The translations under genes were made by a program, and so were the position numbers. A DNA stretch of 64,000 nucleotides from Owenweeksia sp. (GTDB lineage Bacteria; Bacteroidota; Bacteroidia; Flavobacteriales; Schleiferiaceae): the NCBI GenBank assembly GCA_002695025.1, contig NZNV01000001.1:186001-250000 (forward strand), written 5' to 3'. The notes beneath the pieces are model-generated. The model saw only the letters and a list, made by a program, of their open reading frames with translations. It did not search any database and had not been told where the DNA came from. Below are positions 5,515 through 44,853 of the stretch, in pieces (positions within the stretch are counted from its first letter, which is position 1; every line of letters begins with the position of its first letter).

Positions 5515-5561
5515 TTCAGTACGCAATAATTAGAATCAAGTAAAAGATAAACATCAGAAAA

Positions 5562-6971: not shown

Positions 6972-7546
6972 TCTTCAAAAAGATAATTTTCAAAAGAAGC
7001 ATTGTGGCTCTGGCCCCGATGCTTTTTTTGTATTCCTGTGAAAACAATATCAGTGAAGTAAAGAATATTACACAGGAAGAGAAAATTCCCCTGGAGGTAC
7101 AAGAGAACCTGGAACTCATCTACTCGGATAGCAGCTACACCAAAATGGAACTCAAGGCCCCGTTGGCGGAGAACTATCCGCAGTTGGAAGAGCCTGAAAT
7201 GGTATTCCGTAAAGGTATTAAGGTGCGCTTCTTTGATGCATACGGGCAGGAAGATTCAAGATTGAAAGCCAATTATGCTATTCATTATTCCAACAAGCGG
7301 CTCTGGCATGCTACCGGAGATGTGGTGGTGGTGAATAAAAAAGGGGAACAATTGAATACAGAAGAGCTGTACTGGGACGAAAAAAAAGAGACCATTTACT
7401 CCGAGGTATTTGTTAAAATAACCACGGACGAGGAGATAATAATGGGCGAAGGCTTTGAAGCTGACCAAAATTTTACTAACTATACTTTATCAAAAGTAAC
7501 CGGACAAATTACTATTGAGGATGATGAGGATGTTCAAGATCGTTGA
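6968..7546 (+). CDS. lptC: LPS export periplasmic protein LptC (lipoprotein)
   Basis: LptC passes lipopolysaccharide from the inner-membrane LptBFG transporter to LptA. The 192-residue product has a lipobox-like signal (LFLYSC, Cys about residue 19) rather than the usual single N-terminal helix, which is common for LptC in this phylum. It then has the beta-jellyroll pattern of the family: SSYTKMELKAPLAENY, MVFRKGIKVRFFDAYG, LKANYAIHYSNKRLWHATGDVVV, LNTEELYWDEKKETIYSE, and GEGFEADQNFTNY. The start overlaps the TPR gene's stop, and the small membrane gene begins inside its 3' end. Assignment rests on motif and context. Confidence 0.85.
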   Translation: MIFKKIIFKRSIVALAPMLFLYSCENNISEVKNITQEEKIPLEVQENLELIYSDSSYTKMELKAPLAENYPQLEEPEMVFRKGIKVRFFDAYGQEDSRLKANYAIHYSNKRLWHATGDVVVVNKKGEQLNTEELYWDEKKETIYSEVFVKITTDEEIIMGEGFEADQNFTNYTLSKVTGQITIEDDEDVQDR

Positions 7547-7730
7547 GGTTGCCTGGATTGTGGTAGCCGTAGTCTCCGCTTTGGAGTTGATCAAACTATG
7601 GGGAAGCGGGGATACCAAATTCTGGCTTTTTGCCGGGGCTATGGCAGTGGCCATATTCATGTTCTTTTTCCGAAGAAAACAGCGACAGCGCTATGAGCGC
7701 TACCAGCAGGAGCAGCCCGAAGATAAATGA
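7530..7730 (+). CDS. Small two-helix membrane protein
   Basis: A product of about 66 residues with two predicted membrane helices (VEVAWIVVAVVSALELIKLW and FWLFAGAMAVAIFMFFF) and a very basic-acidic tail (RRKQRQRYERYQQEQPEDK). Starts are possible at TTG 7515 and ATG 7521, 7524 and 7530. I chose 7530 (MFKIVEVAW), since the earlier residues are only repeated Met/Arg. It sits between lptC and the CNNM gene with overlaps on both sides. It is conserved-looking by position but has no function I can name. Confidence 0.72.
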   Translation: MFKIVEVAWIVVAVVSALELIKLWGSGDTKFWLFAGAMAVAIFMFFFRRKQRQRYERYQQEQPEDK

Positions 7731-8983: not shown

Positions 8984-9099
8984 AATTGCAAAACCTCCTC
9001 ATTCAGGCACTTTTGTAGCAAATTATCACTGGATGGCAGTGTCTTCTTTTCACTGACAATTGTATATTCGCAACCTTAAAAATTTAAAGAATAAGATAG

Positions 9100-11259
9100 A
9101 TGGCGACTTTAGAGCGTATCAGACAACGTTCAGGATTATTGATCATCATTATTGGTTTAGCCATGGCTGCCTTTATCCTGACTGACCTTTTGGGATCCGG
9201 AAATTCCATTTTTCGTGGAGATGCCACCGTAGTAGGGAAAATCAACGGACGCAATATCCAGGTCCAGGATTTTAGTCAACGTATGGACACGTATGAAAAA
9301 GCCGTTCGGGCACAATCTCAGGGACAACAAAACCTTACCCGTAAGCAAGTGGCAGATGGTGCCTGGAATGAACTCCTGCAAGAAGAGATCATGGGAGAGC
9401 AATATGAAGAGATGGGTTTTGCCGTTTCCTCAGCTGAATTATACGATCGCCTGAAGTCAAACCCCAACGTTCAGTCCGCCCAGGCTTTTAAAGATCAGGT
9501 AAACGGTCAGTTCAGTGAAGCTTTATTCCAGCAGTACCTTACTAATCTGCAGGATCAGAGCGGAAGTGATCAGCGTGCAGCAGAGGCCTATGTACAATGG
9601 CTGGAGTTTGAAGAGGGCACAGAAAAAGCTGCCCTGAGCCAGAAGTATATTACAGCCGTACAAAAAGGTTTGTATATGCCTCTCAAAATGACTGAGATGG
9701 AGTATGAGCGTAACAACGCTTCCATTACCGCCAAATTCCTGGCTATGGAGTACAGCACTGTTTCTGATTCAGCGGTTCAGGTTACGGATGCTGACTATCA
9801 AGCCTACTATAAAGAGCATAAGGAAGATTATAAAACTGAGGATACCCGCAGTATCGAGTTCGTGAATTTTCGTGTAGACCCTTCACAGGCAGACCGTGAA
9901 GCGGTGACAGAAGAGCTTAGCGGATACCTCAAGACAGAGGTAAACGGAACGGATACTATAGAATCCTTTGCCACTACTCAAAAGGATTCCCTGTATGCCG
10001 CCAATCGCTCTGATTTTCCGGTTGCCGGTATATATTACAGGCAAGATGATCTGCCAGCAGGCATTGACTCCACTATTTTTGATCATGACAAAGGCTATGT
10101 AGTAGGACCTTACGAAAGTGGTAACTATTATAAACTTACCCGTGTTTCGGATTTCAAAAACCTTCCGGATTCGGTAAGCGCCCGTCATATCCTTATTTCC
10201 TTTAACAACGGTCAGAACAATGTAGAGCGTTCCTACCAGGAAGCTCAAAAGCTTTCGGATAGCCTTTTGACGCTGGTTAAGAAAGACTCTACCCAATTTA
10301 CTGCCCTGGCCAGGGAATATTCAGATGATCCGGGATCAAAGATCAAGGGCGGTAGCCTGGGCTGGTTTAATGACCGTGCCATGGTAAGACCTTTCTCTGA
10401 GTTCTGTTTCCACAATGATGAAGGGGAAATAGGCAAAGTGGTTTCTCAATTCGGTTTCCACATCATCCAGATCATGGATCAGAAAGGAAGCTCACGTGCG
10501 GTAAAGCTGATTAACATTTCCCGCGAACTGGCTCCGAGTGAAAGAACGTATGATGATATATATAACGAAGCCAGTGCTTTTGCTGCTGAAGTTAATGGTG
10601 TAGAATCCTTCAGCAAGATTGCGGAAGAAAAAGGCTATAGCCCCAGACCCATAACCAGGCTTAAGGCTTTTGATGAAAGCATTCCCGGACTGGGCCCTAA
10701 CCGTGAAATTGTAAAGTGGGCGCACGATGAAGAAACCAAAGTGGGCGATATCCAGCTTTTCAATAACAACAATAGCTCCTTTGTGGTGGTGATTGTAACG
10801 GATAAGCAAGAGGAGGGTTATGCCAGCCTGGAGAGTATTAAAGAGGATATCAAGCCGGTTGTGATCCGCAGAAAGAAAGCGGAACAATTCAAGGAAAAAA
10901 TCAATAAAGCCCGTGGAGAAGGCAAGGATATAGCAGCTATAGGCAGCGAGTTGGGTCTGCAGGTAAAAGATCAGGTGACTAATTTCAATGGATCAGCTAT
11001 CAGTGGTTACGGACGCGAGCCTAAAGTTATCGGTGTAATGTGCGCATTGGAACCCAATAAAGTATCAGAGCCTATTGAAGGTGAAAGAGGGGTGTACGTG
11101 GTTCAGGTAGTCAACCGGACTGAGGCTTCGGAGTTGCCGGATTATACTTCCCAGCAAAACCAGCAAAACAGCCAGGTGCGTTCATCAGTTCCCGGTGCCA
11201 TGTTCAACTCCCTGAAGGAGGGTGCCAAGATAAAAGACCGCAGGGCTAAATTCTACTAG
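9100..11259 (+). CDS. PpiD/SurA-like peptidylprolyl isomerase, membrane-anchored
   Basis: A 719-residue periplasmic folding factor. One N-terminal helix (RSGLLIIIIGLAMAAFILTDLLG) anchors it in the inner membrane as in PpiD. A SurA_N-like chaperone domain follows (about 40-240), then a parvulin domain (about 350-450: SARHILISF, FTALAREYSDDPGSKIKGGSLGWFNDRAMVRPF, VSQFGFHIIQI). The rest resembles a second, degenerate chaperone/parvulin region. The family helps outer-membrane and secreted proteins fold after Sec export. It follows the envelope run after a 116-base gap with the possible -7 element TATATTCG (9063-9070), and ends at a strong terminator. Confidence 0.9.
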   Translation: MATLERIRQRSGLLIIIIGLAMAAFILTDLLGSGNSIFRGDATVVGKINGRNIQVQDFSQRMDTYEKAVRAQSQGQQNLTRKQVADGAWNELLQEEIMGEQYEEMGFAVSSAELYDRLKSNPNVQSAQAFKDQVNGQFSEALFQQYLTNLQDQSGSDQRAAEAYVQWLEFEEGTEKAALSQKYITAVQKGLYMPLKMTEMEYERNNASITAKFLAMEYSTVSDSAVQVTDADYQAYYKEHKEDYKTEDTRSIEFVNFRVDPSQADREAVTEELSGYLKTEVNGTDTIESFATTQKDSLYAANRSDFPVAGIYYRQDDLPAGIDSTIFDHDKGYVVGPYESGNYYKLTRVSDFKNLPDSVSARHILISFNNGQNNVERSYQEAQKLSDSLLTLVKKDSTQFTALAREYSDDPGSKIKGGSLGWFNDRAMVRPFSEFCFHNDEGEIGKVVSQFGFHIIQIMDQKGSSRAVKLINISRELAPSERTYDDIYNEASAFAAEVNGVESFSKIAEEKGYSPRPITRLKAFDESIPGLGPNREIVKWAHDEETKVGDIQLFNNNNSSFVVVIVTDKQEEGYASLESIKEDIKPVVIRRKKAEQFKEKINKARGEGKDIAAIGSELGLQVKDQVTNFNGSAISGYGREPKVIGVMCALEPNKVSEPIEGERGVYVVQVVNRTEASELPDYTSQQNQQNSQVRSSVPGAMFNSLKEGAKIKDRRAKFY

Positions 11260-11284
11260 AATTTTTAAGCACTATCGTATTCAG

Positions 11285-11315
11285 AAACCCTTTCCCCAAC
11301 CGGAAAGGGTTTTTT
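11285..11315. terminator. Bidirectional terminator between ppiD-like gene and rodA
   Basis: AAACCCTTTCC and GGAAAGGGTTT pair around a 6-base loop and are followed by T's on the plus strand. On the minus strand AAA is the tail complement and several T's also follow. It lies between two convergent genes and can end both transcripts. Confidence 0.88.
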
Positions 11316-11318
11316 CAT

Positions 11319-12578
11319 TTAAAGGATTTGCAGACGGTAGGCATCCAGCTTGATGAAGACGAATAGCAGGATGGTAAATCCCCATAGCGATGAGCCTCCG
11401 TAGCTAAAGAAGGGCAGGGGAATACCTATTACCGGTGCCAGCCCGATGGTCATGGCTATATTAATGGCAAAGTGAAAGAACAGTATGGATACCACACAAT
11501 AACCATATACTCTGCTGAATAGGGATTTCTGCCGTTCCGCAACCTGCACCAACCGGAAGAAAAGCACCATAAAAAGAGTAATAAGCACGGTGCTTCCTAT
11601 AAAGCCCCATTCTTCTCCCACCGTGCAGAAGATAAAGTCTGTGCTTTGTTCCGGTACAAAATCGAATTTGGTTTGGGTACCTTGTAAGAAGCCCTTCCCC
11701 TGTAATCCTCCGGAGCCTATTGCTATCATGGATTGATTGGTATTGTAGCCAATGCCCTTCGGATCATGCGCTTTACCCAGAAGTATATTGATACGGTTCC
11801 GGTGGCGGTCTTCCAGAACATGGTTAAAAGCATAGTCCACGGTATAGGTAAACATAATAGCCACGGAGAGTACTCCCAGCACACGCCAGTAAAAGCCCCT
11901 GACCTTCCGTGTAAGCAGAACTACTATCAAGGCTATAACCACCAGGCCTATGATAATAGAAAGCTGATCGAAGAGCAGGCTGAGAATGAACAGCACGGCC
12001 AGGCTAAGTCCGAAGAAGATATAATCTCCCGGCAAGCCTTCGCGATAAAGCACCAGGAGTAATGCGGAATACACGAGAGCAGAACCCGGGTCGGGTTGGG
12101 GAATGATCAGTACAGCCGGCATAAAAATAAATCCCAGAGCTATCAACCGGTCGCGCCATCGTTTGATGGATATCCCATCGGTGCTGGCAAAGCGGGCCAG
12201 GGCCAGGGCAGTGGCAAACTTGGCAAATTCTGAAGGTTGCAGGCTAAAACTGCCAATGGCAAACCATGAACGGGCCCCTGCCACTTCCTTGCCGAACAGG
12301 AGAACGCCTAAAAGAGTGAGCAAACTCACAAAATATATAGGATATGCCAGGGCCTGAAAGATCTTTCCATCCGTAAAGAGTATGAGTATCGCCAGAAAAA
12401 GGGAAGTGAGTATCCATATCAGCTGGCGGCCATATTCCTGGCTCATATCCATTATGCTACTGTTCTCTTCGTTGAATACTGCCGCATAGATGTTGCCCCA
12501 TCCCATGAGGATAAGCAGCAGGTACAGCAGTACCAGGAACCAGTCTATATTGGCAAATACACTCCGGTTCTCTCTCAT
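11319..12578 (-). CDS. rodA: Rod-shape peptidoglycan polymerase RodA
   Basis: RodA is the SEDS-family glycosyltransferase that polymerises lipid II in the elongasome together with PBP2. The 419-residue product has about ten membrane helices and the family signatures GARSWFAIGSFSLQPSEFAKFA (loop), PDPGSALVY (with the catalytic-type Asp in QPDPGSA), QGTQTKFDFVPEQSTDFIFCTVGEEWGFIG, and GIPLPFFSYGGSSL. It is the last gene of the mre operon and starts within the mrdA stop (ATGA overlap). Length is slightly above the usual 370-400 residues, with an insertion around residues 195-260. Confidence 0.95.
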   Translation of the reverse strand: MRENRSVFANIDWFLVLLYLLLILMGWGNIYAAVFNEENSSIMDMSQEYGRQLIWILTSLFLAILILFTDGKIFQALAYPIYFVSLLTLLGVLLFGKEVAGARSWFAIGSFSLQPSEFAKFATALALARFASTDGISIKRWRDRLIALGFIFMPAVLIIPQPDPGSALVYSALLLVLYREGLPGDYIFFGLSLAVLFILSLLFDQLSIIIGLVVIALIVVLLTRKVRGFYWRVLGVLSVAIMFTYTVDYAFNHVLEDRHRNRINILLGKAHDPKGIGYNTNQSMIAIGSGGLQGKGFLQGTQTKFDFVPEQSTDFIFCTVGEEWGFIGSTVLITLFMVLFFRLVQVAERQKSLFSRVYGYCVVSILFFHFAINIAMTIGLAPVIGIPLPFFSYGGSSLWGFTILLFVFIKLDAYRLQIL

Positions 12579-14431
12579 TCGTTGTTAAGAGTGAGTAGGT
12601 TTTTCACGTATTTTCCTTCCAGCTGCTTTTGGTATTCATCTTCCAGAGAGCCTTCTATCATCCTTTTTTCCATGTCCTTACGGTTTACCTCACCGGTGAT
12701 GTACTTTTCTATCATAAGGCTGGCAATAGGCGCGGCCCAGCGGCTTCCCCAGTAGCCATTTTCTACGATAATGGCCATCGCTATTTTAGGATTCTTGCGG
12801 GGCGCAAAGGCAATAAAAATAGAATGATCCTGACCATGGGGGTTTTCAGCCGTTCCGGTTTTTCCACACATCTCAATGCTATCATGCCGGCTATAGCGTG
12901 CGGTTCCCTGTTCAAATACGTCAAACATTCCGTTGATCACTTCCTCAAAGTGGATACTGTCAATGGTAGTATGCTTAGGCTCCGTATAATTAGGATCGTC
13001 CAACTTTTCACCATTTACCCTTTTGATGATGTGAGGAGTGTAATAGTAACCCCGGTTGGCAATAGCAGCGCTCATATTAGCCATCTGTATGGGGGTAACC
13101 AGTAGTTCTCCCTGTCCAATGCCCAGTGAGATAGTGCTTACTGCTTTCCAGCGGGTATAGCCAAAGGCCTTGTCGAAATAGTCTGCATCCGGCACAAATC
13201 CTTTGCGCCCGGTAGGCAGATCGTTATTAAGGAATTTTCCCAGGCCAAAACTCTTTACGTGATGGGCCCATGCATTCATACCTTCCTGGGAGGTAGGGTA
13301 TTTTTCAATGATGGATTTAAAAACGTTGCAGTAGTAGTTGTTACAGGATTTACTAATACTGGTGCGGAGGGCAATGGGATAACCCGTTCCACAGTGACAG
13401 GCTACATGCAAACGGCCATAATGGAAGCCGTGATGACAGGTATAGGTGGTAGAAGGAGTTAGTGTGCCTTCCTGGAGACCTACCAGGGCATCAATAACCT
13501 TGAACGGAGAGCCGGGAGGATATTCAGCCAGCAAACCACGGTCGTAAAGAGGCTTGTTTATACTGTCCACATAAAGCTGGCTGTAATTCCTGGTACGGTC
13601 TCTTCCCACCATCAGTTCAGGGTCATAACTGGGGCTGGTAATCAAAGCCAGGATCTCTCCGCTGGAAGGCTCAATAGCCACGATGCTTCCCCTTTTACCG
13701 CTCATCAGCAGCTCTCCGTATTTCTGTAGGTCAATGTCAATGGTACTGGTAATGTCCCTGCCAGGAGTGGGCAACGTATCGTATTCACCTTCCAGGAATG
13801 AACCCTTTACACGGTTGTGTACATCCACCATTTTGTATTGTACTCCCGCCTTTCCGCGCAGTACACTTTCATAGGATTTCTCAATACCGGTAATTCCAAC
13901 CAGGTCTCCCTTTTGGTAACCGGGGTTGCCGGCCAGGAAATTATCCGATGCCTCCCCGATAAATCCCAATACATTGGCAGCCGATTTATAGGGATATTCT
14001 CGTAGGATCCTTTTTTGCGGGTAAAAGCCACTGAACTCATGCAGTTTTTCCTGGAAGTAAGCATATTGCTCCTTGCTGATCTGTTTGATGAAAATAGAGG
14101 GCTTGTACCGGGAATAATTACGTGCCTTCTCAAATCTTTCCTGGAAATCGGTCACGGAAATGTTTACCAGTTTACAGAAAAGGGCCGTATCCAGTTCCTT
14201 TACCTTGATAGGCGTTACCATCAAGTCATAGGCAGACTGGTTACCTACCAATAGTTTTTGGTTACGGTCATAAATAAATCCGCGGCCAGGGTATACCTTT
14301 TCAATACGGATAACATTGTTCTCGGCAGACAATTTATAGTCATCCCTTACTACCTGAATGTAGAAAAGGCGGGCCAGGAAAATTACGGCCAGCGTAATAA
14401 AGAAAAAGAAAAAAAGGTATTTACGTTCCAT
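12575..14431 (-). CDS. mrdA: Penicillin-binding protein 2 (elongation transpeptidase)
   Basis: PBP2 crosslinks glycan strands made by RodA during rod elongation. In the 618-residue product one N-terminal helix (about 6-25) anchors a pedestal domain (about 45-200) and the transpeptidase domain. The active-site triad of motifs is complete: S308-P-F-K311 (SxxK), S362-C-N364 (SxN) and K524-T-G526 (KTG). Three cysteines between motifs one and two (332, 345, 347) may form a disulfide or metal site. It lies between mreD and rodA in the order usual for the phylum. Confidence 0.96.
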   Translation of the reverse strand: MERKYLFFFFFITLAVIFLARLFYIQVVRDDYKLSAENNVIRIEKVYPGRGFIYDRNQKLLVGNQSAYDLMVTPIKVKELDTALFCKLVNISVTDFQERFEKARNYSRYKPSIFIKQISKEQYAYFQEKLHEFSGFYPQKRILREYPYKSAANVLGFIGEASDNFLAGNPGYQKGDLVGITGIEKSYESVLRGKAGVQYKMVDVHNRVKGSFLEGEYDTLPTPGRDITSTIDIDLQKYGELLMSGKRGSIVAIEPSSGEILALITSPSYDPELMVGRDRTRNYSQLYVDSINKPLYDRGLLAEYPPGSPFKVIDALVGLQEGTLTPSTTYTCHHGFHYGRLHVACHCGTGYPIALRTSISKSCNNYYCNVFKSIIEKYPTSQEGMNAWAHHVKSFGLGKFLNNDLPTGRKGFVPDADYFDKAFGYTRWKAVSTISLGIGQGELLVTPIQMANMSAAIANRGYYYTPHIIKRVNGEKLDDPNYTEPKHTTIDSIHFEEVINGMFDVFEQGTARYSRHDSIEMCGKTGTAENPHGQDHSIFIAFAPRKNPKIAMAIIVENGYWGSRWAAPIASLMIEKYITGEVNRKDMEKRMIEGSLEDEYQKQLEGKYVKNLLTLNNE

Positions 14432-14434
14432 TGA

Positions 14435-14938
14435 TCAACTCCGTCTCCTATAATTCCACAACTGTACGATCAATACAAAAGTAAGTGTAAAAATAGAGCT
14501 ATAAAGAGTCCGCACTAAAACCGTTCCAACATCACTCCATCGAAAGGCTTCCAGCATAAAAAGAATAAAGTGGTGAAGGAATACCGCGAAAATGGAGTAG
14601 ACCAACATACTGGGTAAGCCAAAGTTGGTGATTTTAAGATCCTCCAGGTCGGCACCCTGCCTGCGGCTGACCAATCTCAGGAAAGCGGGCCGGAGGTAGG
14701 CCAGTACCAGAGAGGCTGAAGCATGAATACCCCCGCTATTCTCAAAAATATCCACGCTCAGCCCCAGAAGGAAAGCTGTGATAAGTAATAAACCCCTTGA
14801 GGTGGCAATAGGCAGGTAGAGGAGGAAGATGATATAGATATACGGATTCATATATCCCCGGAAGAAAATATGGTTGAACACCAGTACCTGCAGCAGCACT
14901 ACGATGATGAAATACACTATGTACTTGAGTCCTGCCAT
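14435..14938 (-). CDS. mreD: Rod shape-determining protein MreD
   Basis: A 167-residue, strongly hydrophobic protein with about five membrane helices and short loops, as expected of MreD, the least conserved elongasome component. Its assignment rests on position between mreC and mrdA, length, and the motif region GLLLITAFLLGLSVDIFENSGGIHASASLVLAYLR, which resembles the family's G..D...G...G signature. The start overlaps the mreC stop by one base, and mrdA follows after 3 bases. Confidence 0.9.
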   Translation of the reverse strand: MAGLKYIVYFIIVVLLQVLVFNHIFFRGYMNPYIYIIFLLYLPIATSRGLLLITAFLLGLSVDIFENSGGIHASASLVLAYLRPAFLRLVSRRQGADLEDLKITNFGLPSMLVYSIFAVFLHHFILFMLEAFRWSDVGTVLVRTLYSSIFTLTFVLIVQLWNYRRRS

Positions 14939-15774
14939 TAGGGGTCAACGGTAGTATTAAGATCCTCCAACTGTTGCCGTTCCAGCTTCATTTTATCCTG
15001 GATTATATACACCTGCTCCAGGGATGAAAAATCCGTAGAGAGCTTTATTTCAACGCTGTAAAAGTTCTGGTCTTCCTGCAGGCTAGTGGTATCTACTGTT
15101 CCTATGAGTATGCCGGCAGGAAAAGTAAGGGAACGTGCATCCGTAATAATGGTATCGTTCTTATGAACCTGGGCATGGCGCGGTATGTCTGAAAGGGTGA
15201 TATACCGGTAATCATTTAGTTTCCAGTTTACCGGACCAAAAAAACCTTTATCCTTGAATTTACCGCTAACCGAAATACCAGGATTGATAAGGGGTATAAC
15301 GGTGCAAAAGTGCTCACTTACATTTTGTACTATGCCCACCGCTCCGCGTGGTCCGATAACACCCATTTCTGATTGTACACCGTGCAGGCGGCCCCGGTTG
15401 AGGGTGATGAAATTCCGGGATTTACGAAAGCTCGAATTAAGCACGTCAGCCTTAATAAAGGTATACTGAACCTTATAAATGGTGTCTTCCCGGCTTTCCG
15501 TGTTTTGGGTAAGGGGAAGAAAAGCGTTGGGGAGCAGAGAGCGCAATTCGGCATTTTCTTCTGAAAGTCGTTCATTCTGATGCTCCAGGTCCAGGTATTG
15601 GGTATAATCGTTATAGGCGCTGAGTATTTCACCGCTTACCACGGCTGAGGAGTTGAGAAAAGAGGCTCTTTGAAAGCTACGGCTTCTGAAGATCAGCGCA
15701 AAAGATACCAGCTGTAATGCCAGAAAAAGCAGAAAGATGCGTTTCCTATAGAGGAAGGCCAGCAGGTAGCGCAT
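14938..15774 (-). CDS. mreC: Rod shape-determining protein MreC
   Basis: MreC is a periplasmic scaffold that activates PBP2/RodA. The 278-residue product has an N-terminal membrane helix (about 11-28), a coiled coil (about 55-80, LDLEHQNERLSEENAELRSLL), and the two-barrel MreC domain (about 105-265) with the family signatures RNFITLNRGRLHGVQSEMGVIGPRGAVGIVQNVSEHFC and VITDARSLTFPAGILIGTV. It lies 10 bases after mreB on the same strand and overlaps mreD by one base. Confidence 0.95.
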   Translation of the reverse strand: MRYLLAFLYRKRIFLLFLALQLVSFALIFRSRSFQRASFLNSSAVVSGEILSAYNDYTQYLDLEHQNERLSEENAELRSLLPNAFLPLTQNTESREDTIYKVQYTFIKADVLNSSFRKSRNFITLNRGRLHGVQSEMGVIGPRGAVGIVQNVSEHFCTVIPLINPGISVSGKFKDKGFFGPVNWKLNDYRYITLSDIPRHAQVHKNDTIITDARSLTFPAGILIGTVDTTSLQEDQNFYSVEIKLSTDFSSLEQVYIIQDKMKLERQQLEDLNTTVDP

Positions 15775-15784
15775 GCAGGTTTTT

Positions 15785-16810
15785 TTACTTCATTAAAAAG
15801 TTGAATTTACCGATATTTTTCAAGGCAATACCTGTGCCTCTTACCACCGCCCGCAAGGGATCTTCAGCTACATAAACGGGAAGATCTGTTTTCATGGATA
15901 CCCGTTTATCCAGGCCGCGCAGCATAGAGCCGCCACCTGCCATATAAATTCCGCTGTTGTAGATATCGGCAGCCAGCTCTGGTGGTGTCATGGACAGGGC
16001 CTCCATAATAGCATCCTCAATACGCATGATGGATTTATCCAGGGCTTTACTGATCTCCTTATAGGTTACAATGATCTGTTTGGGCTTACCGGTGAGCAGG
16101 TCGCGACCCTGAACCGGCATATCCTCGGGTGGATTATCCAGTTCGTCAAGTGCTGAGCCGATCTGGATCTTGATCTCTTCCGCGGTACGCTCTCCCACGT
16201 AGAGGTTATGCTGGGTGCGCATATAATAGCTGATGTCGTTGGTAAACACGTCACCGGCTACCTTAATGGATTTATCAGCCACAATACCACCCAGGGCAAG
16301 TACTGCAATTTCTGTAGTACCTCCGCCTATATCAATGATCATATTGCCTTTAGGTTCCTGTACATCCACACCGGTTCCGATGGCCGCGGCCATGGGCTCG
16401 TGGATCAGGTATACTTCACGGGCACCCGCATGTTCAGCTGAATCACGTACCGCCCGTTTTTCCACTTCGGTGATACCGGAAGGGATACAGATCACCATGC
16501 GCAGAACGGGAGGGATCATACGGCCCTTAAGGTTGGGAATACTTTTGATCATTTCACGGATCATAGCTTCTGAAGCCTCAAAATCAGCGATAACGCCATC
16601 CTTGAGTGGACGTATGGTCTTAATGTCCTCGTGGGTCTTGCCGTGCATCTGGCGAGCCTGATGCCCTACGGCAATGATCTTATTGGTATTACGGTCCTTC
16701 GCTACTATAGATGGGGCATCTACCACCACCTTGTCATTATGTATAATCAGCGTATTGGCCGTGCCGAGGTCAATGGCGATATCCTCCCTGAAAAAATCAA
16801 ATAATCCCAT
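15785..16810 (-). CDS. mreB: Rod shape-determining actin homologue MreB
   Basis: MreB forms membrane-bound filaments that position the elongation machinery. The 341-residue product shows all actin-fold motifs: phosphate-1 DLGTANTLI (residues about 11-19), phosphate-2 MIIDIGGGTTEIAVLALGGIV, and the adenosine motif GIYMAGGGSMLRGLDKR. The N-terminal GLFDFF segment is a likely membrane-binding amphipathic stretch. It follows purH by only 7 bases, so purH and the mre genes are probably one transcript, an arrangement common in Bacteroidota. Confidence 0.97.
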   Translation of the reverse strand: MGLFDFFREDIAIDLGTANTLIIHNDKVVVDAPSIVAKDRNTNKIIAVGHQARQMHGKTHEDIKTIRPLKDGVIADFEASEAMIREMIKSIPNLKGRMIPPVLRMVICIPSGITEVEKRAVRDSAEHAGAREVYLIHEPMAAAIGTGVDVQEPKGNMIIDIGGGTTEIAVLALGGIVADKSIKVAGDVFTNDISYYMRTQHNLYVGERTAEEIKIQIGSALDELDNPPEDMPVQGRDLLTGKPKQIIVTYKEISKALDKSIMRIEDAIMEALSMTPPELAADIYNSGIYMAGGGSMLRGLDKRVSMKTDLPVYVAEDPLRAVVRGTGIALKNIGKFNFLMK

Positions 16811-16817
16811 TCCTTAA

Positions 16818-18329
16818 TCAGTGTTTAAAATGACGGGTTCCGGTAAATACCATGGCCATATTATTATCATTACAGTAGTCAATGGATAGCTGGTCTTTCA
16901 CCGAACCTCCGGGTTGTATTACTGTGTTTATACCTTCTTTATGAGCAATCTCCACGCAGTCCGGGAAAGGGAAGAAAGCATCGGAAGCCATTACCGCACC
17001 GTTCAGGTCAAAATTAAATGATTTGGCCTTCACTATTGCCTGCTTCAGTGCATCCACCCGTGAGGTTTGTCCTGTTCCGCTGGAAACCAGTTGTTTGCCT
17101 TTGGCTAGTACAATAGTATTGGATTTGGTGTTCTTGCAGATCTTGGAGGCAAAAGCAAGGTCGCTGAGCTCTTCAGCAGACGGGGCTCTTTGGGTGCGCG
17201 TTTCCATATCCTCTATGCGGTCCGTTACAAAATCGCGATCCTGGACCAATGCACCATTCAACAAACTCCTGAACTGTTGGGCGGGAGCTTCAAAATCCTT
17301 TAAGATAAGGATAATACGGTTTTTCTTTTGCTGGAGGATCGTCAGTGCCTCTTTGGAGTAGGAGGGGGCAATAACGATCTCAAAGAAGAGGCTGTTCATT
17401 TCTTCTGCGGTGGCACCATCCACTTCCACATTGGTAATAATAATACCTCCGAAAGCAGAAACAGGGTCACCGGCAAGAGCATCTTTCCAGGCCTGGGTAA
17501 GGTTTTCTCTGCTGGCTACGCCACAGGCGTTGTTATGTTTGAGAATGGCCAGGGTAGTTTCATCAAACTCCTTGATAAGGCTTACAGCGGCATCGGCATC
17601 CAAGAGGTTGTTATAGGAAAGTTCCTTGCCGTGTAACTGTTCAAAAACCTCTTCAAGGTGACCAAAGAAAGCACCTTTTTGGTGTGGGTTTTCCCCGTAG
17701 CGCAAAACTTTCTCCGGGCCGAAGTTCAGGTTAAAGGAATGATCGCCTACCAGGTAGTTTTCAATGGCCCGGTCATAGGCTGATGAAATAGCAAAGGCCC
17801 GTGCGGCAAATTGCCTGCGTTCTTCCTGTGATGGTGTTCCCTTCTCCAGTATAGAGATAGCATTCTGGTAATCGTTCCTGGAAGGAATGATCCAGGTATC
17901 CTTATAGTTTTTGGCGGCTGCACGGATCAGCGAGATGCCACCGATATCGATCTTTTCAATTATGGAATCATGGTCTGCGCCACTGGCCAGGGTTTCTTCA
18001 AAAGGGTAAAGGTCTACCACAATTACATCAATGGAGGGGATTTCGTACTCCTGCATCTCTTCCTGGTCATGTTTCAGGTCCCTGCGGCCCAGTATACCTC
18101 CAAAAACTTTGGGGTGAAGAGTTTTTACACGACCTCCCAGTATGCTGGGATAGCCGGTAAGGTCTTCCACTGCTTCTACTGGGTAACCCAGTTCTTCAAT
18201 AAAGGCTCGTGTACCTCCGGTAGATAACAGGCGGTACCCCCTTTGTGAAAGGGATTTAACCAGTTTATCCAGGCCATCTTTATAAAATACAGAAATAAGT
18301 GCGTAAGATTGATCGGCTTGTTGTGGCAT
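16818..18329 (-). CDS. purH: Bifunctional AICAR formyltransferase / IMP cyclohydrolase
   Basis: PurH catalyses the last two steps of de novo IMP synthesis. The 503-residue protein has the N-terminal IMP cyclohydrolase (MGS-like) domain (about 1-140: LLSTGGTRAFIEELG, GGRVKTLHPKVFGGILGRR) and the C-terminal AICAR transformylase domain with LRYGENPHQKGAFFG, AILKHNNACGVA, DPVSAFGGIIITN, SDAFFPFPDCVEIAHKEGI and IQPGGSVKD. The length is close to that of the family (about 510-530). It heads the presumed mre operon. A hairpin followed by T's lies just before its ATG (see findings). Confidence 0.97.
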   Translation of the reverse strand: MPQQADQSYALISVFYKDGLDKLVKSLSQRGYRLLSTGGTRAFIEELGYPVEAVEDLTGYPSILGGRVKTLHPKVFGGILGRRDLKHDQEEMQEYEIPSIDVIVVDLYPFEETLASGADHDSIIEKIDIGGISLIRAAAKNYKDTWIIPSRNDYQNAISILEKGTPSQEERRQFAARAFAISSAYDRAIENYLVGDHSFNLNFGPEKVLRYGENPHQKGAFFGHLEEVFEQLHGKELSYNNLLDADAAVSLIKEFDETTLAILKHNNACGVASRENLTQAWKDALAGDPVSAFGGIIITNVEVDGATAEEMNSLFFEIVIAPSYSKEALTILQQKKNRIILILKDFEAPAQQFRSLLNGALVQDRDFVTDRIEDMETRTQRAPSAEELSDLAFASKICKNTKSNTIVLAKGKQLVSSGTGQTSRVDALKQAIVKAKSFNFDLNGAVMASDAFFPFPDCVEIAHKEGINTVIQPGGSVKDQLSIDYCNDNNMAMVFTGTRHFKH

Positions 18330-20742: not shown

Positions 20743-23643
20743 ATGATGAAGAAACTACACCTTATTGGCCTGATGTGCTTACTGGGATTGGGTTTTAATG
20801 AATTATGGGGACAAACCATTTCCATAACAAACTGGTCCACGGATCCTACCAAACCTCGTACCATATGCCAATGTGATACATTTGATCTTCCCGTGAATAA
20901 AACTCCCGGCCCGGGCAATCACAAGGAAGCTATACGATATTTCTTAAGCGGTAACTTCAATCCTACTACTGAATTTGCTTTTGAATTTGCCAATCCCGTG
21001 AATGCCTTCGCAACTGCGGATTCGCTGGATATACTGGATATATCCATTCGAACAGCTGTAGGACCACCTCCCACTTTCGCGAGTGATACTTTTTCTGGTC
21101 CGGCAGAACACTATGCCAGCGTTGTTATTCCGTGCAATGCACCGTTGGGTCCCGCCAGTCTGCGTATAAGTAACTCCAGTGGCGTTAAAAGTGATACAAT
21201 CTATTTTATAGTGAATCGTATTCCAGATCCCGCTGTTATTAAAAGTGTGACCAATGCGGTAGACAATCCTTATACACCAACCGTCCCTGACCTGGGCTTT
21301 TGCCAGGGTGATACGGTAGTGCTGGAAGCAGAGCAACAGCCTGGAGCCAATTATCAATGGTTTCGCAACGGTAGTGCTATTGCAGGAGAAACGGATACCA
21401 TTCACAAGGCAATTATCCCGGGAACCTACAGCCTTAGGATAGACCTTGGAGCCTGCCCGCGCATGTCAAAAGATACGATCCTGAATGTTTTTCCACGAGC
21501 AACCCTGGGTAACTTAGAGTTTGTTCCCAGTCCGATGGCTTTCCAAATGGATAATCCTATCATCCCTAATGTGTCTCCGGATGACTCGGTTATGTTCTGC
21601 GAGAGCGTGACAGCCACTCTGAATGCTCCGCGTACCCCGCCAGCAGGAGTGACTTTTGAATATCAGTGGATCACGGACACCATAGATCCGAATAGTGGTC
21701 AACCGATCTACTTTCCTATTGACACTGTTTCAGCCGGTAAGCCTCGTATGGATACCAGCCAGTCGCTTACTATAGACAGTAGCCTGATCTCATTTGTAAA
21801 CGGGGAAGCCAGGGTTTACTTAACCATCTATGACGGTTTCTGTAACGATACTTCACGCACCATTTTTCTTTTCATGGATTCAATTCCGGCCACGGTGGTA
21901 AGGAATCGGACCTGGGATAAGGGTGTTTTATTGCCAATAAATGTCAACTCTGATATTTGTATGAAGGATGATTCACTGATACTCAGTTCGTCCTACACCG
22001 CCTCCAATATTAAATACCAGTGGCAGCGATCTTTGAACGGAAGTTCCTGGGCCAACCTCCCCAGTGCCAACAATCCTACGGTTAATGGAACCATGCGTAC
22101 CCTGAACGTAGATACCAGTTATAAACCTAAACCTACGCCCACCATTACGTATTACAGGCTTGTAACCAGTACTGTAACACCCTTTACCAATGATGTAGTG
22201 TGCAGTTTTACTTCGGATAGTGTGCGTATACGCTGGTTACCTGATTACAGGGTGGAAGTGGCCCCCGGCCAGCCCCAGGTAACCTTTATTGCCCCGGATA
22301 CCGTAAACTTCTGTGAAACAGACTCTGCAATCGTGAGGGGACCTGCCAGTCCGGATCCGTTTGTATTGCCTTATAAATACGGGTGGTTAAAGGATACGGT
22401 GAATGCTCTCAACCAAACGGTGCAAATACCTACTGGCCCGAATGATACTCTCCGGAATGTAACCGTAAGAAAAAGTGGTAAATACTATGTCACCTTTGAT
22501 GATGGTATATGTATAGATACCTCCAGGGCAGTATATGTATATGTAGATACTATACCGCAAACCAACCTGGTATCAGTGCCATTTGCTGGTATTCCTCCAA
22601 AAGTGGATCCCTTTGACCGTTGTTTATATGATTCAGTTCAGATATCCGTTACGGATACCGTAAGGCCGGGCTGGGATTACCAATGGCAACGTTTTGTTGA
22701 AACTGTAGGCTGGATAGACCTGGTGAATGATACCAACCCGGCCATTGTAGTGGATACTTCCTATACACCCCTTGAGGATACTACTCTTTACCGGGTAGTA
22801 ATCAATTATACCAATCGCTTTGGCATACCGGGATGTGAATATATATCTGATGCGGTGGAAGTACGTTGGTATGATCTGCCCCAAATTACCTTCTTCCCCT
22901 CTGATTCCGTTGGTTTGTGTTTTGGCGAAACAGTAAGGGTTGTAGCAGAGGGTAATGCCCTGAGCTATCGCTGGGCGGATGGTCCGCTTGGAGCTTCAAG
23001 GGTGTTTGACAATGTTGGGACCTATACACTTATTGCCAAAGGGGTGAATGATTGTGAGAAGGAGTACGAAGTTGATATTTACGATATCACTATTAACGCC
23101 AATGCCGGTCCTGACCAGACCATCAACTCCAATCAATCCGCAACGCTTACGGCTTCCGGTGGTGTAACCTACCGTTGGTATGCCAGTGAACCGTTGGATT
23201 TCAACGACTTCCTGTCGCAATCCATCCAGGTGAGCAAAATACTGCCCGACTCAGTAGCATCGGATACCATTACTATTTATGTAGAAGCTACCGGGGCGGA
23301 TGGTTGCCAAGATACGGATTCCCTGCTGCTTATTATCCTCAACCCCCGTAATAAGGACAATCTCCTGAACCTTGAGAATGCTTACAACCTGTTTACTCCT
23401 AATGCTGACGGTGTTAATGACAGATGGGATATCAGAAGGATTGTAGATGACTACGGAGGCTGCGACATTATGGTCCTCAACCGTTGGGGTTCCGTTCGTT
23501 ACGAAGAAGAGAACTTTAGTGGCCTCTGGGATGGAAATGACCAGGGAGGTAATCCCTTACCAGATGGTACCTACTATTACATTTTAAGTTGTGACGATCA
23601 GGTAATACTGAAGAGCGCTGTAACTATAATACGTAACGAATAA
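20743..23643 (+). CDS. Large T9SS type B cargo protein with Ig-like repeats
   Basis: A 966-residue surface or secreted protein. It has a signal peptide (about 1-24, ending LWGQ), a globular N-terminal part (about 25-165), then about six to seven Ig-like or PKD-like repeats, each opening with a Cys-bearing strand (FCQGDTVVLEA, FCESVTATLNA, ICMKDDSLILSS, FCETDSAIVRG, CLYDSVQISV, LCFGETVRVVA) and a YQW-type strand. The gliding-motility-associated C-terminal domain (CHU_C, type B sorting) is at about 880-966 with LFTPNADGVNDRWDI, VLNRWGSV and LPDGTYYYIL. Such repeats suggest an adhesin. The PorP/SprF-SPOR gene follows after 10 bases, the usual partnership for type B cargo. Confidence 0.92.
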   Translation: MMKKLHLIGLMCLLGLGFNELWGQTISITNWSTDPTKPRTICQCDTFDLPVNKTPGPGNHKEAIRYFLSGNFNPTTEFAFEFANPVNAFATADSLDILDISIRTAVGPPPTFASDTFSGPAEHYASVVIPCNAPLGPASLRISNSSGVKSDTIYFIVNRIPDPAVIKSVTNAVDNPYTPTVPDLGFCQGDTVVLEAEQQPGANYQWFRNGSAIAGETDTIHKAIIPGTYSLRIDLGACPRMSKDTILNVFPRATLGNLEFVPSPMAFQMDNPIIPNVSPDDSVMFCESVTATLNAPRTPPAGVTFEYQWITDTIDPNSGQPIYFPIDTVSAGKPRMDTSQSLTIDSSLISFVNGEARVYLTIYDGFCNDTSRTIFLFMDSIPATVVRNRTWDKGVLLPINVNSDICMKDDSLILSSSYTASNIKYQWQRSLNGSSWANLPSANNPTVNGTMRTLNVDTSYKPKPTPTITYYRLVTSTVTPFTNDVVCSFTSDSVRIRWLPDYRVEVAPGQPQVTFIAPDTVNFCETDSAIVRGPASPDPFVLPYKYGWLKDTVNALNQTVQIPTGPNDTLRNVTVRKSGKYYVTFDDGICIDTSRAVYVYVDTIPQTNLVSVPFAGIPPKVDPFDRCLYDSVQISVTDTVRPGWDYQWQRFVETVGWIDLVNDTNPAIVVDTSYTPLEDTTLYRVVINYTNRFGIPGCEYISDAVEVRWYDLPQITFFPSDSVGLCFGETVRVVAEGNALSYRWADGPLGASRVFDNVGTYTLIAKGVNDCEKEYEVDIYDITINANAGPDQTINSNQSATLTASGGVTYRWYASEPLDFNDFLSQSIQVSKILPDSVASDTITIYVEATGADGCQDTDSLLLIILNPRNKDNLLNLENAYNLFTPNADGVNDRWDIRRIVDDYGGCDIMVLNRWGSVRYEEENFSGLWDGNDQGGNPLPDGTYYYILSCDDQVILKSAVTIIRNE

Positions 23644-23653: not shown

Positions 23654-25141
23654 ATGAAAAAGCTTTTATTATCTACCGCAATAGTAATAATGGGCCTGCA
23701 ACAGGTTAAGGCTCAACAAATACCTTTATACAGTAATTACTTCTTTACGCCCTATATGTACAATCCCGCTCAAAGCGGAACAGAAGGGTTCACAGAACTT
23801 ACATTGCTGCACCGTAGACAGTGGGTGGATGTTCAGGGCTCTCCTGAAACTTCAGCTCTGGGTATTAATGGTTCGCTCAACGAGGAGAAAGTAGGGTGGA
23901 GCGTATATGGTTTCCGGGATATTACGGACATTGTTAGCCGTATCGGGGTATATGGTAATTATGCCTACCGTGTAAACCTGGCTGATAATACGGTACTGGC
24001 CTTCGGTTTGGGTGCCGGATACCTGAATAACCAGATAGATCAAAGTGCCATACGCTCCCAGCAGACGGAAGCTATCGTTACTGTGGCTACGGACAACCGT
24101 GGTAATTTTGACCTCAATGCCGGAGTAAACCTTGAAATATCTGATTTTACCCTGGGCTTTTCAGCTCCTCAGCTTCTGGGGCAGTCCATTAAGTATACCG
24201 AGAATACCCAGGTACCTGTAAACTACACCCTTCTCAGGCATTATGTAGTGAGTGCTCAATATGATTTCCGCTTTCGCGGGGATGACAATGTACTCTCACC
24301 CATCGTAATGGTTAAGGCTGCCAAGAACGTACCCGTTCAGGTAGACGCGGGGCTTTTATTCAACCTGAAGGATTATGGTTATGTAGGAGCCATGTACCGT
24401 TCTGAGTATGCTGTAACAGGAAACATCGGTGTTAACCTTACTGAGCAGCTTACCCTTGGTTACGCTTATGATTTTTCACTGAATGATTTCGGGCCTGAAC
24501 TGGGTACTTCCCATGAGTTTATGCTCACCTATCGCTTTGGAAACAACAAGCGTAACGATCGTCTTGAGAACGAGATCAAGCGTTTGAAACAACAACAACG
24601 GAGTCAGAAAGACGAAGTAGAGGAGATCGTGAATGAGCGCCTGGAAGAGTTCAAGGATGAATACAAGCGTGAAATAAAGAAAGAAGTTGAGGACGCTGCG
24701 GCCAAGGAAGCCGAAAAGAACCAGAATAATCAACAACCTTCCAACAGCCAGGGAACTGCCGGTCAGCCAAGTGGAAATAACAATAATACGAACAACAATA
24801 ACCCGGCTAATACTCAGCAACCCGGGAACAATAATGCGCCTTCTACACAACCCGGAGATGTGCCCGGATTCAATGCGGCAAACCAGGCCAATAATGTACA
24901 ACCTGGTGCCAAGGGATATTATGTTACGGCCGGGGTATTCAGCAGTCAGCAGAATGCTGAAAAGATGGTCCGCAAACTGGGTAGCCAGGGGTTAAACGCC
25001 CGTTATTTCCAGGATAAGAGTAATTATTATTATTATGTATATCTGCTGCACTTTGACAGTTACCAGCAGGCAGATGCTGCCAAAAGCAGCGGCCTGAATG
25101 GTTCGTACAGCGGAGATCTTTGGATCAAGATAGTAGAATAG
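23654..25141 (+). CDS. PorP/SprF-family barrel fused to a SPOR domain
   Basis: A 495-residue protein. After a signal peptide (about 1-21) comes a PorP/SprF-type outer-membrane barrel (about 22-295) with the family opening PLYSNYFFTPYMYNPAQSG and HRRQWVDVQGSP. PorP/SprF proteins serve T9SS export or surface attachment of type B cargo. A highly charged coiled coil follows (about 300-355), then a Gln/Asn/Pro-rich linker (about 356-418), and a SPOR domain (about 420-495: GYYVTAGVFSSQQNAEKMVRKL, YYYYVYLLHFDSYQQADA). SPOR domains bind denuded peptidoglycan, so the fusion could tie the T9SS surface complex to the cell wall. The usual PorP/SprF is about 300-350 residues and lacks this tail. Confidence 0.9.
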   Translation: MKKLLLSTAIVIMGLQQVKAQQIPLYSNYFFTPYMYNPAQSGTEGFTELTLLHRRQWVDVQGSPETSALGINGSLNEEKVGWSVYGFRDITDIVSRIGVYGNYAYRVNLADNTVLAFGLGAGYLNNQIDQSAIRSQQTEAIVTVATDNRGNFDLNAGVNLEISDFTLGFSAPQLLGQSIKYTENTQVPVNYTLLRHYVVSAQYDFRFRGDDNVLSPIVMVKAAKNVPVQVDAGLLFNLKDYGYVGAMYRSEYAVTGNIGVNLTEQLTLGYAYDFSLNDFGPELGTSHEFMLTYRFGNNKRNDRLENEIKRLKQQQRSQKDEVEEIVNERLEEFKDEYKREIKKEVEDAAAKEAEKNQNNQQPSNSQGTAGQPSGNNNNTNNNNPANTQQPGNNNAPSTQPGDVPGFNAANQANNVQPGAKGYYVTAGVFSSQQNAEKMVRKLGSQGLNARYFQDKSNYYYYVYLLHFDSYQQADAAKSSGLNGSYSGDLWIKIVE

Positions 25142-42903: not shown

Positions 42904-44853
42904 ATGAATATGAAAACTCTGTACATCAGGTTGTTGATGTTCCTTGCGGTGAGTATAACTGTAACCTCTTCGGTATACGGTGCACACTTGGTAGGGGGTG
43001 ATATTTCCTATGAATGTATGGGGAATAATAAATACCAGGTACGTCTTAGGGTCTATCGCGACTGCGCCAGCGGAGGAGCAGATTTTGACGAATTCGCTTT
43101 TATAGCGGTGTATGATGACGCCAGTAACCTTATAACTGAGTTACGAGTAAGTGGCCGGGGCCGTACACGGGTGCCGGATTCTACCGGTAATCCCTGTGTT
43201 ATTCCTCCTCCCGGCCTTTGTACCGAGTATTTTGATTATACAGATACCGTTACGCTGCCTCCCCGTCCGGGTGGCTACGTACTTACCTGGCAGCGCTGTT
43301 GCCGCAATGGTATTGTCAAAAATGTAGCATCTCCCAACTCGCTGGGCAGTACCTATACCGTTCAGATACCCAGCAATGATACCTTATGCAACAGCTCACC
43401 TTTTATAGAGAATGTACCCCCTATTGTATTGTGTAACAACCAGACTCTATCTATTCCCGTTAAGGTAAGAGATCGGGATGGGGACTCTCTTTATTATGAA
43501 TTATGCAACATATATCGGGGTGGGAATGTACCCGGAAGCCCTACTCCCTGTGTAGGAGACCCCGTGATCCCAAGGCCTCCTTGTCCACCACCGTACCGTG
43601 AAATTCCTTTCATCCCTCCTTACACAGCTAGTGACCCCATACCTTCTTCACCAGCCTTTACTATTGATCGACAAACCGGTATACTATCCGGTGTACCTAA
43701 TGAACCTGGAACGTATGTGGTGGGTATTTGTGTCAGCGACTATCACCAGGGACGATTGAAGAGTACGGTACGGCTGGATTACCAGTTTACCGTTACGGAC
43801 TGTATAAAAGCTACGGTAAGTGACATGCTTACACCCTTAGAAGATCCTACTATTCTCTGCGATGGCCTTACGGTTGACTTTACCTCGCAAAGTAATTCAG
43901 CGGATGTGTTCTGGGATTTTGGTGTACCGGGTGTTAACACCGATACTTCATCCCTGTTAAAGCCTACCTTTACCTTTCCTGGGCCAGGCGCTTACAAAGT
44001 CACCCTATACGCAGGAACCAAAAGCCCTTGCGGAGATACCACCGAATTTATTTTCAACGTAAGTAATCCTGTGCTCCCGGAGTTTTTCTGGACAGGACAA
44101 ACTTGTTTTGAGGCGCAGGCGGTGGATTTTAGACCGATAACCGGTTTCCCGGCCGGTACCACCTATCTCTGGGAGTTTGACAGTACGGCTGCTTTCCCCA
44201 CCTTTACACAACCAAATCCCCCTATACAAAGCTGGTCGGTTCCGGGAAAGCATTATATAAGCCTTTCTGTAAAAGTTGGTTTTTGTACCTATACCAAGCG
44301 AGACTCCATTGAAATAAGCTACCTCAGTGCTAATGTAGATGCTGGACCGAACCAGACTGTAAGCCTCGGTGAGTGGGCACGCTTAAGGGCCACTGGGGGC
44401 TCCGATTATTATTGGTATGCGGATGATGAGGTGGAGATGAGCAGCCGTATAACGGCTAATACACTGGCGCGTATGGAAGAGGTGGATACCGTAAAGTTCT
44501 ATGTTCGGGCACGGGACGAGTTTGGCTGCGAAGGTTTGGACTCTACCCTGGTATTTGTACTGAATGGTGATGCCCCTGGGCCTATCAACTTCTTTTCACC
44601 CAACGGGGATGGTGTTAATGATGAGTTTGACCTGAAGAGTATTAACCCGGATAATGCTTATTCCCTGGTTATTTTTAACCGCTGGGGTAGTGAGGTATGG
44701 TCCGTAAAAGAGTACCAGAATGATTGGTCCGGGGTGGATTATGGTTATAATGAATTGCCGGATGGCACTTATTACTACATTCTACATGATCAGGGAGAAG
44801 TGATCTACAAATCGGCCATTACTCTGATGCGCGATACCGATGGACGCCCCTGA
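42904..44853 (+). CDS. T9SS type B cargo protein with PKD domains
   Basis: A 649-residue surface protein with a signal peptide (ending VYGA, about residue 28) and an N-terminal domain (about 29-300) of the Bacteroidota family opening AHLVGGDISYECMGNNKYQVRLRVYRDC. Two PKD domains follow (about 310-480: FWDFGVPGVNTDTS, FTFPGPGAYKVTLYAGT; YLWEFDSTAAF, SWSVPGKHYISLSV), then an Ig-like module (DAGPNQTVSLGEWARLRATGG) and the gliding-motility-associated C-terminal domain (about 560-649: FFSPNGDGVNDEFDL, IFNRWGSEVW, LPDGTYYYIL). Its last ~170 residues parallel those of the gene at 20743. Type B cargo depends on T9SS and PorP/SprF partners. Confidence 0.92.
   Translation: MNMKTLYIRLLMFLAVSITVTSSVYGAHLVGGDISYECMGNNKYQVRLRVYRDCASGGADFDEFAFIAVYDDASNLITELRVSGRGRTRVPDSTGNPCVIPPPGLCTEYFDYTDTVTLPPRPGGYVLTWQRCCRNGIVKNVASPNSLGSTYTVQIPSNDTLCNSSPFIENVPPIVLCNNQTLSIPVKVRDRDGDSLYYELCNIYRGGNVPGSPTPCVGDPVIPRPPCPPPYREIPFIPPYTASDPIPSSPAFTIDRQTGILSGVPNEPGTYVVGICVSDYHQGRLKSTVRLDYQFTVTDCIKATVSDMLTPLEDPTILCDGLTVDFTSQSNSADVFWDFGVPGVNTDTSSLLKPTFTFPGPGAYKVTLYAGTKSPCGDTTEFIFNVSNPVLPEFFWTGQTCFEAQAVDFRPITGFPAGTTYLWEFDSTAAFPTFTQPNPPIQSWSVPGKHYISLSVKVGFCTYTKRDSIEISYLSANVDAGPNQTVSLGEWARLRATGGSDYYWYADDEVEMSSRITANTLARMEEVDTVKFYVRARDEFGCEGLDSTLVFVLNGDAPGPINFFSPNGDGVNDEFDLKSINPDNAYSLVIFNRWGSEVWSVKEYQNDWSGVDYGYNELPDGTYYYILHDQGEVIYKSAITLMRDTDGRP

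Follow-up and report, generated by a model that had tools for sequence, protein, structure and literature searches.

Introduction

What does a T9SS carrier protein do with a SPOR domain at its end? The question is raised by a gene of Owenweeksia sp. (Schleiferiaceae) within the window, by which we mean the whole stretch of 64,000 nucleotides analysed here. Its product joins a PorP/SprF barrel to a C-terminal SPOR domain, and it is preceded by a gene for a T9SS type B protein.

Published accounts assign PorP-like proteins two tasks for type B cargo, carriage and anchoring at the surface (PMC9143113, PMC12618676). PorP is stated to bind PorE, which itself binds peptidoglycan, as well as PG1035, a type B protein, and PorP-PorE is postulated to hold those type B proteins that are not mobile (PMC9143113). 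Likewise, Fjoh_3952 is suggested to be held statically via a PorE homologue, five operons of cargo, shuttle and PorE are counted in F. johnsoniae, and the mobile or fixed fate of type B T9SS proteins is treated as an open point (PMC12618676). The PorP-SPOR fusion was not found described in searches of the open-licence PMC literature, although domain databases may list the architecture.

Domain plan and predicted fold of PorP-SPOR

The features of the gene and its surroundings are given in Table 1. The product matched PF11751 (PorP_SprF) over residues 19–293 with an E value of 3.1e-63 (214.3 bits, cut-off 22.3), and TIGR03519 in NCBIfam with 5.5e-66 (223 bits, curated cut-off 90.55). A further Pfam match, to PF05036 (SPOR), covered residues 419–478 with an E value of 1.2e-8 (35.6 bits, cut-off 21).

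Table 1. Coordinates of PorP-SPOR, its parts and neighbouring features (positions in the window).
Feature	Position	Strand	Basis or remarks
Block taken to be rodA, mrdA, mreD, mreC, mreB, purH (putative gene names, from translations)	11319..18329	-	neighbours the cargo/PorP-SPOR pair
Cargo, 966 aa, Ig-like domains and T9SS type B (CHU_C) sorting domain	20743..23643	+	Pfam, NCBIfam
PorP-SPOR fusion gene, whole ORF	23654..25141	+	495 aa, ATG start
Putative Sec signal peptide (residues 1-20) followed by Gln21-Gln22	23654..23713	+	read from sequence
PorP/SprF beta-barrel, residues 21-296	23714..24541	+	Pfam 19-293, predicted strands, PDB fold matches
Long helix, residues 297-355	24542..24718	+	model helix 299-355; mean pairwise identity 0.35 over 297-352
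Asn/Gln/Pro-rich linker, residues 356-413, length varies	24719..24892	+	pLDDT <50 at 355-398
SPOR domain, residues 414-495, with T425, Y461, Y463, W490, K492	24893..25138	+	Pfam, model, fold matches
Terminator-like palindromic hairpin after the PorP-SPOR stop codon	25164..25189		listed on the - strand; runs of T on either strand
Second, orphan type B cargo, 649 aa, PKD and CHU_C	42904..44853	+	CHU_C 8.6e-22

Three alignments were used: A1, which omits L019 (a cut contig), A2, with the window protein and 46 of the 78 named loci, and A3, with the window protein and 20 of the 78. The mean identity of the SPOR domain (0.506) was close to that of the barrel (0.514) and far above that of the linker (0.172 over 353–413), which is 20–88 residues long across 47 rows. 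Gln21 and Gln22 were invariant across 47 aligned rows.

The full-length AlphaFold2 model comprised the barrel, a single helix, the linker stretch of low pLDDT and an end with a beta-alpha-beta-beta-alpha-beta arrangement. The sequence-only reading had proposed a coiled coil followed by an Asn/Gln/Pro-rich linker; the linker is borne out, and what stands of the coiled coil is the predicted helix. Matches of the full-length model in the PDB included, near the top, the F chains of the T9SS translocon entries 8gl6 and 6h3i, and FadL. As far as residue 295 the barrel model shows 16 segments of strand, which may include split ones, where a 14-stranded, FadL-like barrel is expected for PorP/SprF.

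Modelled alone, the SPOR domain reached a pLDDT of 92.6 with a predicted RNP-like arrangement of strands and helices. Five of its top six solved matches were SPOR or CwlC wall-binding domains, the best match being 6ozd, an exported protein that carries no SPOR label (Z 9.8). The Z scores for CwlC (7.3), DedD (7.0), RlpA (7.0; 6.8 for 6i09, with denuded glycan) and DamX (5.0) all lie below 8, where by the caution of the fold-comparison tool a match may reflect a common arrangement. FtsN, at Z 3.5, stood amid unrelated rows, which begin at Z 4.2, and in the Foldseek listing an E value below 0.001 was obtained for CwlC alone. We base the SPOR fold on these matches and the Pfam profile taken together. 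Both end domains named by the sequence-only reading, the PorP/SprF barrel and the SPOR domain, are thus confirmed by profile, the SPOR domain also by its predicted fold.

Distribution of the fusion

At E <= 1e-60 the PorP-SPOR family alignment was matched in 71 of the 76 listed Schleiferiaceae genomes, and in 64 of these the match reached the SPOR end (query position 493 or beyond). The other seven matches ended earlier, at contig ends or within the linker; for three of them (G018, G023 and G032) SPOR was seen separately. Given these counts, the fusion is neither a chance product nor an assembly join, and the full-length homologues in many genomes also rule out a frame error as its origin. Five of the 76 genomes gave no match at this threshold, one of which (G007) is 99% complete, suggesting that PorP-SPOR is dispensable.

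Across the order, 79 of 395 genomes matched at the same threshold, the 71 Schleiferiaceae and eight others, two of which (family f11) have tail-less barrels. Carriers of the gene include Schleiferia, Phaeocystidibacter, Thermaurantimonas, Ichthyobacteriaceae, Fluviicola and MAGs labelled Owenweeksia or Cryomorphaceae.

The class was sampled with 40 genomes, one from each of 40 families and with the window's own genome included, which gave 405 PorP matches when summed from the table. A coinciding Pfam SPOR match was present for at least 12 of the 405, in at least 10 of the 40 genomes; both counts are lower bounds, drawn from the PorP matches listed. PorP and SPOR were paired by contig and frame length. 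Among the class PorP matches listed, nine frames exceeded 430 aa and most others were about 300–350 aa. The SPOR tail is therefore a minority form among all PorPs, yet it is widespread, and within Schleiferiaceae this gene normally carries it. The earlier statement that PorPs are typically free of such a tail holds for most PorPs and fails for this gene in its family. A recent one-off fusion is rejected by the SPOR-tailed PorPs found family-wide and at class level.

Cargo genes and neighbourhood

The cargo gene, which the sequence-only reading had placed 10 bases upstream, does end 10 bases before the PorP-SPOR start. Its ORF matched CHU_C (8.6e-20) and Ig_7 (2.3e-11) in Pfam and TIGR04131 (1.3e-13) in NCBIfam. 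Relatives have the same arrangement: in 30 of 30 loci, the window's included, a long ORF ends 5–71 bases 5' of PorP-SPOR, and 73 of the 78 loci of named genomes have an upstream ORF of 300 aa or more. CHU_C was found in all 35 upstream proteins scanned (out of 73) at order level and, at class level, in 38 of the 39 scanned (out of 41) upstream of tailed PorPs. The two left out of the class-level scan are PorPs that themselves lie upstream in tandem; the upstream protein of L175 had earlier been left out by length.

Tandem PorPs occur in L155 and L157, where one carries SPOR and the next a C-terminal extension with a weak carboxypeptidase-regulatory-like match (by Pfam in L155 only).

The next ORF 3' of PorP-SPOR is DinB-like (Pfam) and on the opposite strand, and there is no PorE-like gene 3' of PorP-SPOR in the window. 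From the sequence, the unit is read as cargo plus PorP-SPOR. Three terminator-like sites were found in the region, which is not above shuffled sequence (mean 4.8).

Among the 67 loci of named genomes in which 1.5 kb or more of downstream sequence is available, 21 have a homologue of the orphan cargo at 42904–44853 directly 3' of PorP-SPOR and in the same orientation. For this reason the product of the orphan gene is a likely second client of PorP-SPOR, as a prediction from gene order.

Of 15 contexts around the cargo/PorP-SPOR pair, 12 included a purH homologue and nine an mreB homologue; some of the 15 stop short of where mreB would be. Despite this conserved neighbourhood, a functional tie to the mre/rod genes was rejected: they lie on the opposite strand and are mixed with housekeeping genes, and in four loci of family f52 (8–10 kb each) only the two cargo genes and the PorP of the window found matches.

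Exchange of tail modules

We compared 42 long PorPs at class level (399–664 aa), a non-random sample picked for long frames from the rows matching the PorP-SPOR family model best. The family-derived model (from A1) identified SPOR in 30 of them at E <0.01, two marginally (L168, 0.0017; L176, 0.0025). Pfam at E <= 0.01 gave SPOR in 24, OmpA in six and TPR in five, and the two approaches combined gave SPOR in 31 of 42, L164 being added by Pfam. The six OmpA tails were named by eye except that of L161, and L155 showed a weak CarboxypepD_reg match below cut-off. Four had no tail named by a model (the second PorP of L157, L169, L174 and L175); L174 is SPOR-like by eye and is labelled SPOR in the barrel tree and the SPOR-site alignment.

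Further PorP fusions comprised TSP3 plus OmpA (L051–L053) and TPR plus SPOR. Family f52, the most informative comparison, shows another order: a cargo gene, a tail-less PorP and then a separate gene of about 630–660 aa (L184–L187). All four of these downstream proteins matched PD40, TPR and SPOR, and three of them also, weakly, CarboxypepD_reg. One, compared with NCBIfam, matched T9SS_PorE over residues 22–511 with an E value of 3.2e-52, at 177.7 bits against a curated cut-off of 600. SPOR there occupies the place of PorE's OmpA.

On a tree of 84 barrels, all 48 SPOR-labelled rows fell within one branch of 61 (97/91), together with six OmpA rows, two CRD-labelled rows, one unassigned long tail and the four tail-less f52 PorPs. 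L005 (own genome) is not in the tree, nor is one non-PorP ORF, which fell out, and the tree warns of long branches. Placing the SPOR label on this tree took 8 changes, compared with 27.4 for shuffles, which points to several swaps or losses of tails. The clustering of tailed rows is partly built in, since they were picked by similarity to this family.

Some relatives are of unusual size or arrangement. L055 holds a PorP of 1527 aa (4846–9429, minus strand) in which about 1140 residues separate the barrel from the SPOR domain, and its relative L054 a frame of 970 aa (9138–12050, plus strand) with the SPOR match in the next ORF. Directly 3' of the PorP-OmpA fusion of L053 lies a non-PorP ORF (9661–10914, plus strand) that also matches the SPOR model.

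Other PorP and SPOR proteins of the same genome

The genome from which the window derives encodes five PorPs above cut-off, the window gene included. One lies ahead of GldK, GldL, GldM and GldN. Another is preceded by a CHU_C protein (1564-aa frame) and followed by a PorE-like protein with TPR, PD40, weak CarboxypepD_reg and a terminal OmpA, whose match is below the NCBIfam curated cut-off. A third adjoins GldJ, and a fourth follows a PKD-rich protein (2114-aa frame, CHU_C below cut-off); each of these two has two Cys in its tail, in neither case as SprF's exact Cys-x-Cys. Judged by gene order and sequence, the genome seems to combine several modes of attachment.

The same genome has, in L219 (G000:C21:39000-47000), tandem genes at 3610–4785 and 4876–6102 (minus strand) for proteins that look as if made of a barrel, a coil and a SPOR-like end but are not PorP; Pfam matched SPOR in only one of the two.

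Proposed mechanism

PorP-SPOR is probably a shuttle for type B T9SS cargo that brings its own periplasmic anchor, that is, the equivalent of PorP plus PorE in one chain, as its sequence and models suggest. The cargo, probably an adhesin-like protein, would be exported by the T9SS and its CHU_C domain caught by the barrel. By way of the helix and disordered linker (residues 297–413) the SPOR domain would reach the cell wall below and so hold barrel and cargo in place. The outcome would be static surface display and not motion along the gliding track. We infer the secretion dependence, the cargo-binding step, peptidoglycan as ligand and the static behaviour; the basis seen is the domains, the predicted fold, the co-conserved cargo, the conservation of SPOR, the absent SprF-type cysteines and the exchange of SPOR and OmpA. 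A T9SS surface protein tethered to the wall, as proposed earlier from the sequence, is thus supported as the likeliest role. The export station proposed alongside it fares differently: nothing found suggests that the tail acts in export, and PorP-like proteins are described as carriers and anchors (PMC9143113, PMC12618676).

The PorP-PorE-PG1035 system of Porphyromonas gingivalis and Fjoh_3952-3951-3950 are alike in having a type B cargo, a PorP barrel and a wall module proposed to immobilise the complex. The window protein differs from them in that its wall module is SPOR instead of OmpA and is fused to the barrel via helix and linker. It also lacks the TPR, beta-propeller and regulatory-like domains: TPR, PD40 propeller, regulatory-like domain and OmpA are all absent from its Pfam and NCBIfam matches. 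PorP-SPOR would work like PorE (NF052230) and is not a member of the PorE family. The PorP-TSP3-OmpA fusions (L051–L053) and the SPOR-type PorE-like proteins (L184–L187) follow the same tethering logic with modules exchanged, the former differing in the type of wall domain and the latter in having it in a separate gene.

SprF of F. johnsoniae also belongs to the PorP family and carries a type B adhesin. Its C-terminal tail is functional and periplasmic, and the Cys-x-Cys in this tail is disulfide-linked to GldK on the moving track (PMC12635249). In contrast, the window protein has no cysteine at all, and 74 of 74 full-length homologues have none after residue 25. A disulfide of the SprF-GldK type, and with it a SprF-type tail, is thereby ruled out for PorP-SPOR.

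PorP-SPOR is genuine and represents a conserved, widespread variation on anchoring by PorP/PorE, and the surprise lies in the module exchange and the altered SPOR site more than in the fusion itself. With carrier and anchor in one chain in many Bacteroidia families, it offers a simple system for asking what fixes type B cargo.

Residues of the SPOR ligand site

According to the RlpA study, the side chains of R302, R309, R311 and Q270 contact the glycan, main-chain contacts are stressed, and Q251 and R285 in FtsN, like Q351 and W416 in DamX, are important for septal localisation (PMC6895207). These positions were compared in one MAFFT alignment, of low identity, with E. coli RlpA and FtsN. It held 43 PorP-SPOR rows (the window protein, 32 PorPs from the class-level set of 42, and 10 from among the 78 named loci), 42 of them distinct because of shared C-terminal 200 residues (L138 and L150 share these, as do L137 and L180). 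The comparison set consisted of 23 other Bacteroidia SPORs, namely the best non-PorP row from each of 20 class genomes and three from the window's own genome.

The window SPOR has T425 at the position of RlpA Q270 and Y461 at that of R309. Across the 43 rows, the Q270 (FtsN Q251) position holds Val in 30, Ile in eight and Thr in five; the R309 (FtsN R285) position holds Tyr in 38, Phe in four and Asn in one; and the R311 position holds Tyr in 28, Phe in 10 and other residues in five. All four PorE-type SPORs likewise have Tyr at the R309 position, with Thr (three) or Val (one) at that of R311. The 23 other Bacteroidia SPORs have Arg at the R309 position in 17 cases, and at the Q270 position Ile in 12, Gln in seven and Val in four. 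The contrast in Arg between T9SS-linked and other SPORs (Fisher p 4e-11) is descriptive only, the rows being related. Loss of the Gln is thus, on this alignment, partly a trait of the phylum, and loss of the Arg goes with the T9SS-linked set. The missing Gln does not exclude membership of the SPOR fold family, since it is also absent in 16 of the 23 others. With both contact residues replaced, peptidoglycan binding by PorP-SPOR is uncertain.

Tentatively, we suggest a wider scheme in which T9SS carriers and PorE-like proteins may share a SPOR kind of their own, with Tyr or Phe in place of the Arg that recognises the bare sugar acid and Y-x-[YF] in most PorP tails; its target would be another feature of the wall or a partner protein. 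Whether a type B surface protein glides or stays might then be set by the tail type, with Cys-x-Cys, OmpA-type PorE and SPOR serving as interchangeable address labels.

The same substitutions bear on an unlikely alternative to the wall anchor, namely that the SPOR is a T9SS-specific offshoot gripping a protein, perhaps one belonging to the track or a ring, or some unusual glycan, and not ordinary peptidoglycan strands. Tyr or Phe for the contact Arg in 42 of 43 PorP-SPORs, and Tyr in the four PorE-type SPORs, while most of the comparison set keeps Arg, would fit such an offshoot, as would the invariance of Y461 and W490 over 47 aligned rows. Tyr, however, can stack on sugars, the OmpA modules that relatives have in this position suggest a common ligand in the wall, and L222, a PorP with two SPOR domains outside the 43, keeps Arg in both.

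According to the sequence-only reading, the SPOR domain would bind denuded glycan and concentrate barrel and cargo at division sites. We regard this as more doubtful still, and it is not supported as written. A septal role would be consistent with the SPOR fold, with RlpA (bound to denuded glycan), DedD and DamX among the nearest solved folds, and with the main-chain glycan contacts stressed for RlpA. It would also accord with the DamX W416 position, where Trp is kept in all 43 PorP-SPORs (16 of the 23 others), although Lys at the DamX K418 position occurs in only 10 of the 43. These positions probably correspond to W490 and K492 of the window protein, if a constant offset of 340 between model (5–81) and chain (345–421) applies; FtsN of E. 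coli is gapped at both columns of the MAFFT alignment. Against the septal reading, the contact Gln and Arg are replaced in 43 of 43, so septal targeting is not simply transferable from FtsN or RlpA; the FtsN fold match is weak; and OmpA, the swap partner, is not known to be septum-specific. PorP-SPOR therefore has in common with RlpA, FtsN and DamX the SPOR fold and, as in DamX, a Trp in the last strand, and differs from them in its contact positions and in being joined to a T9SS barrel. Because the recognition residues are altered, SPOR matches in these bacteria are not to be read as division proteins by default.

That PorP-SPOR is mainly a structural tether between outer membrane and wall, with cargo carriage secondary, is very improbable. 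Its plan of barrel, linker and wall-binding domain does resemble OmpA, and a further barrel-like protein with SPOR is encoded in this genome. However, the loci examined have a cargo gene directly upstream, TIGR03519 identifies the barrel as a full PorP, and some relatives add a second cargo directly downstream.

Tandem SPOR domains, two in each protein, were observed in the PorPs of L139 (4714–6762, minus strand) and L222 (1298–3460, minus strand).
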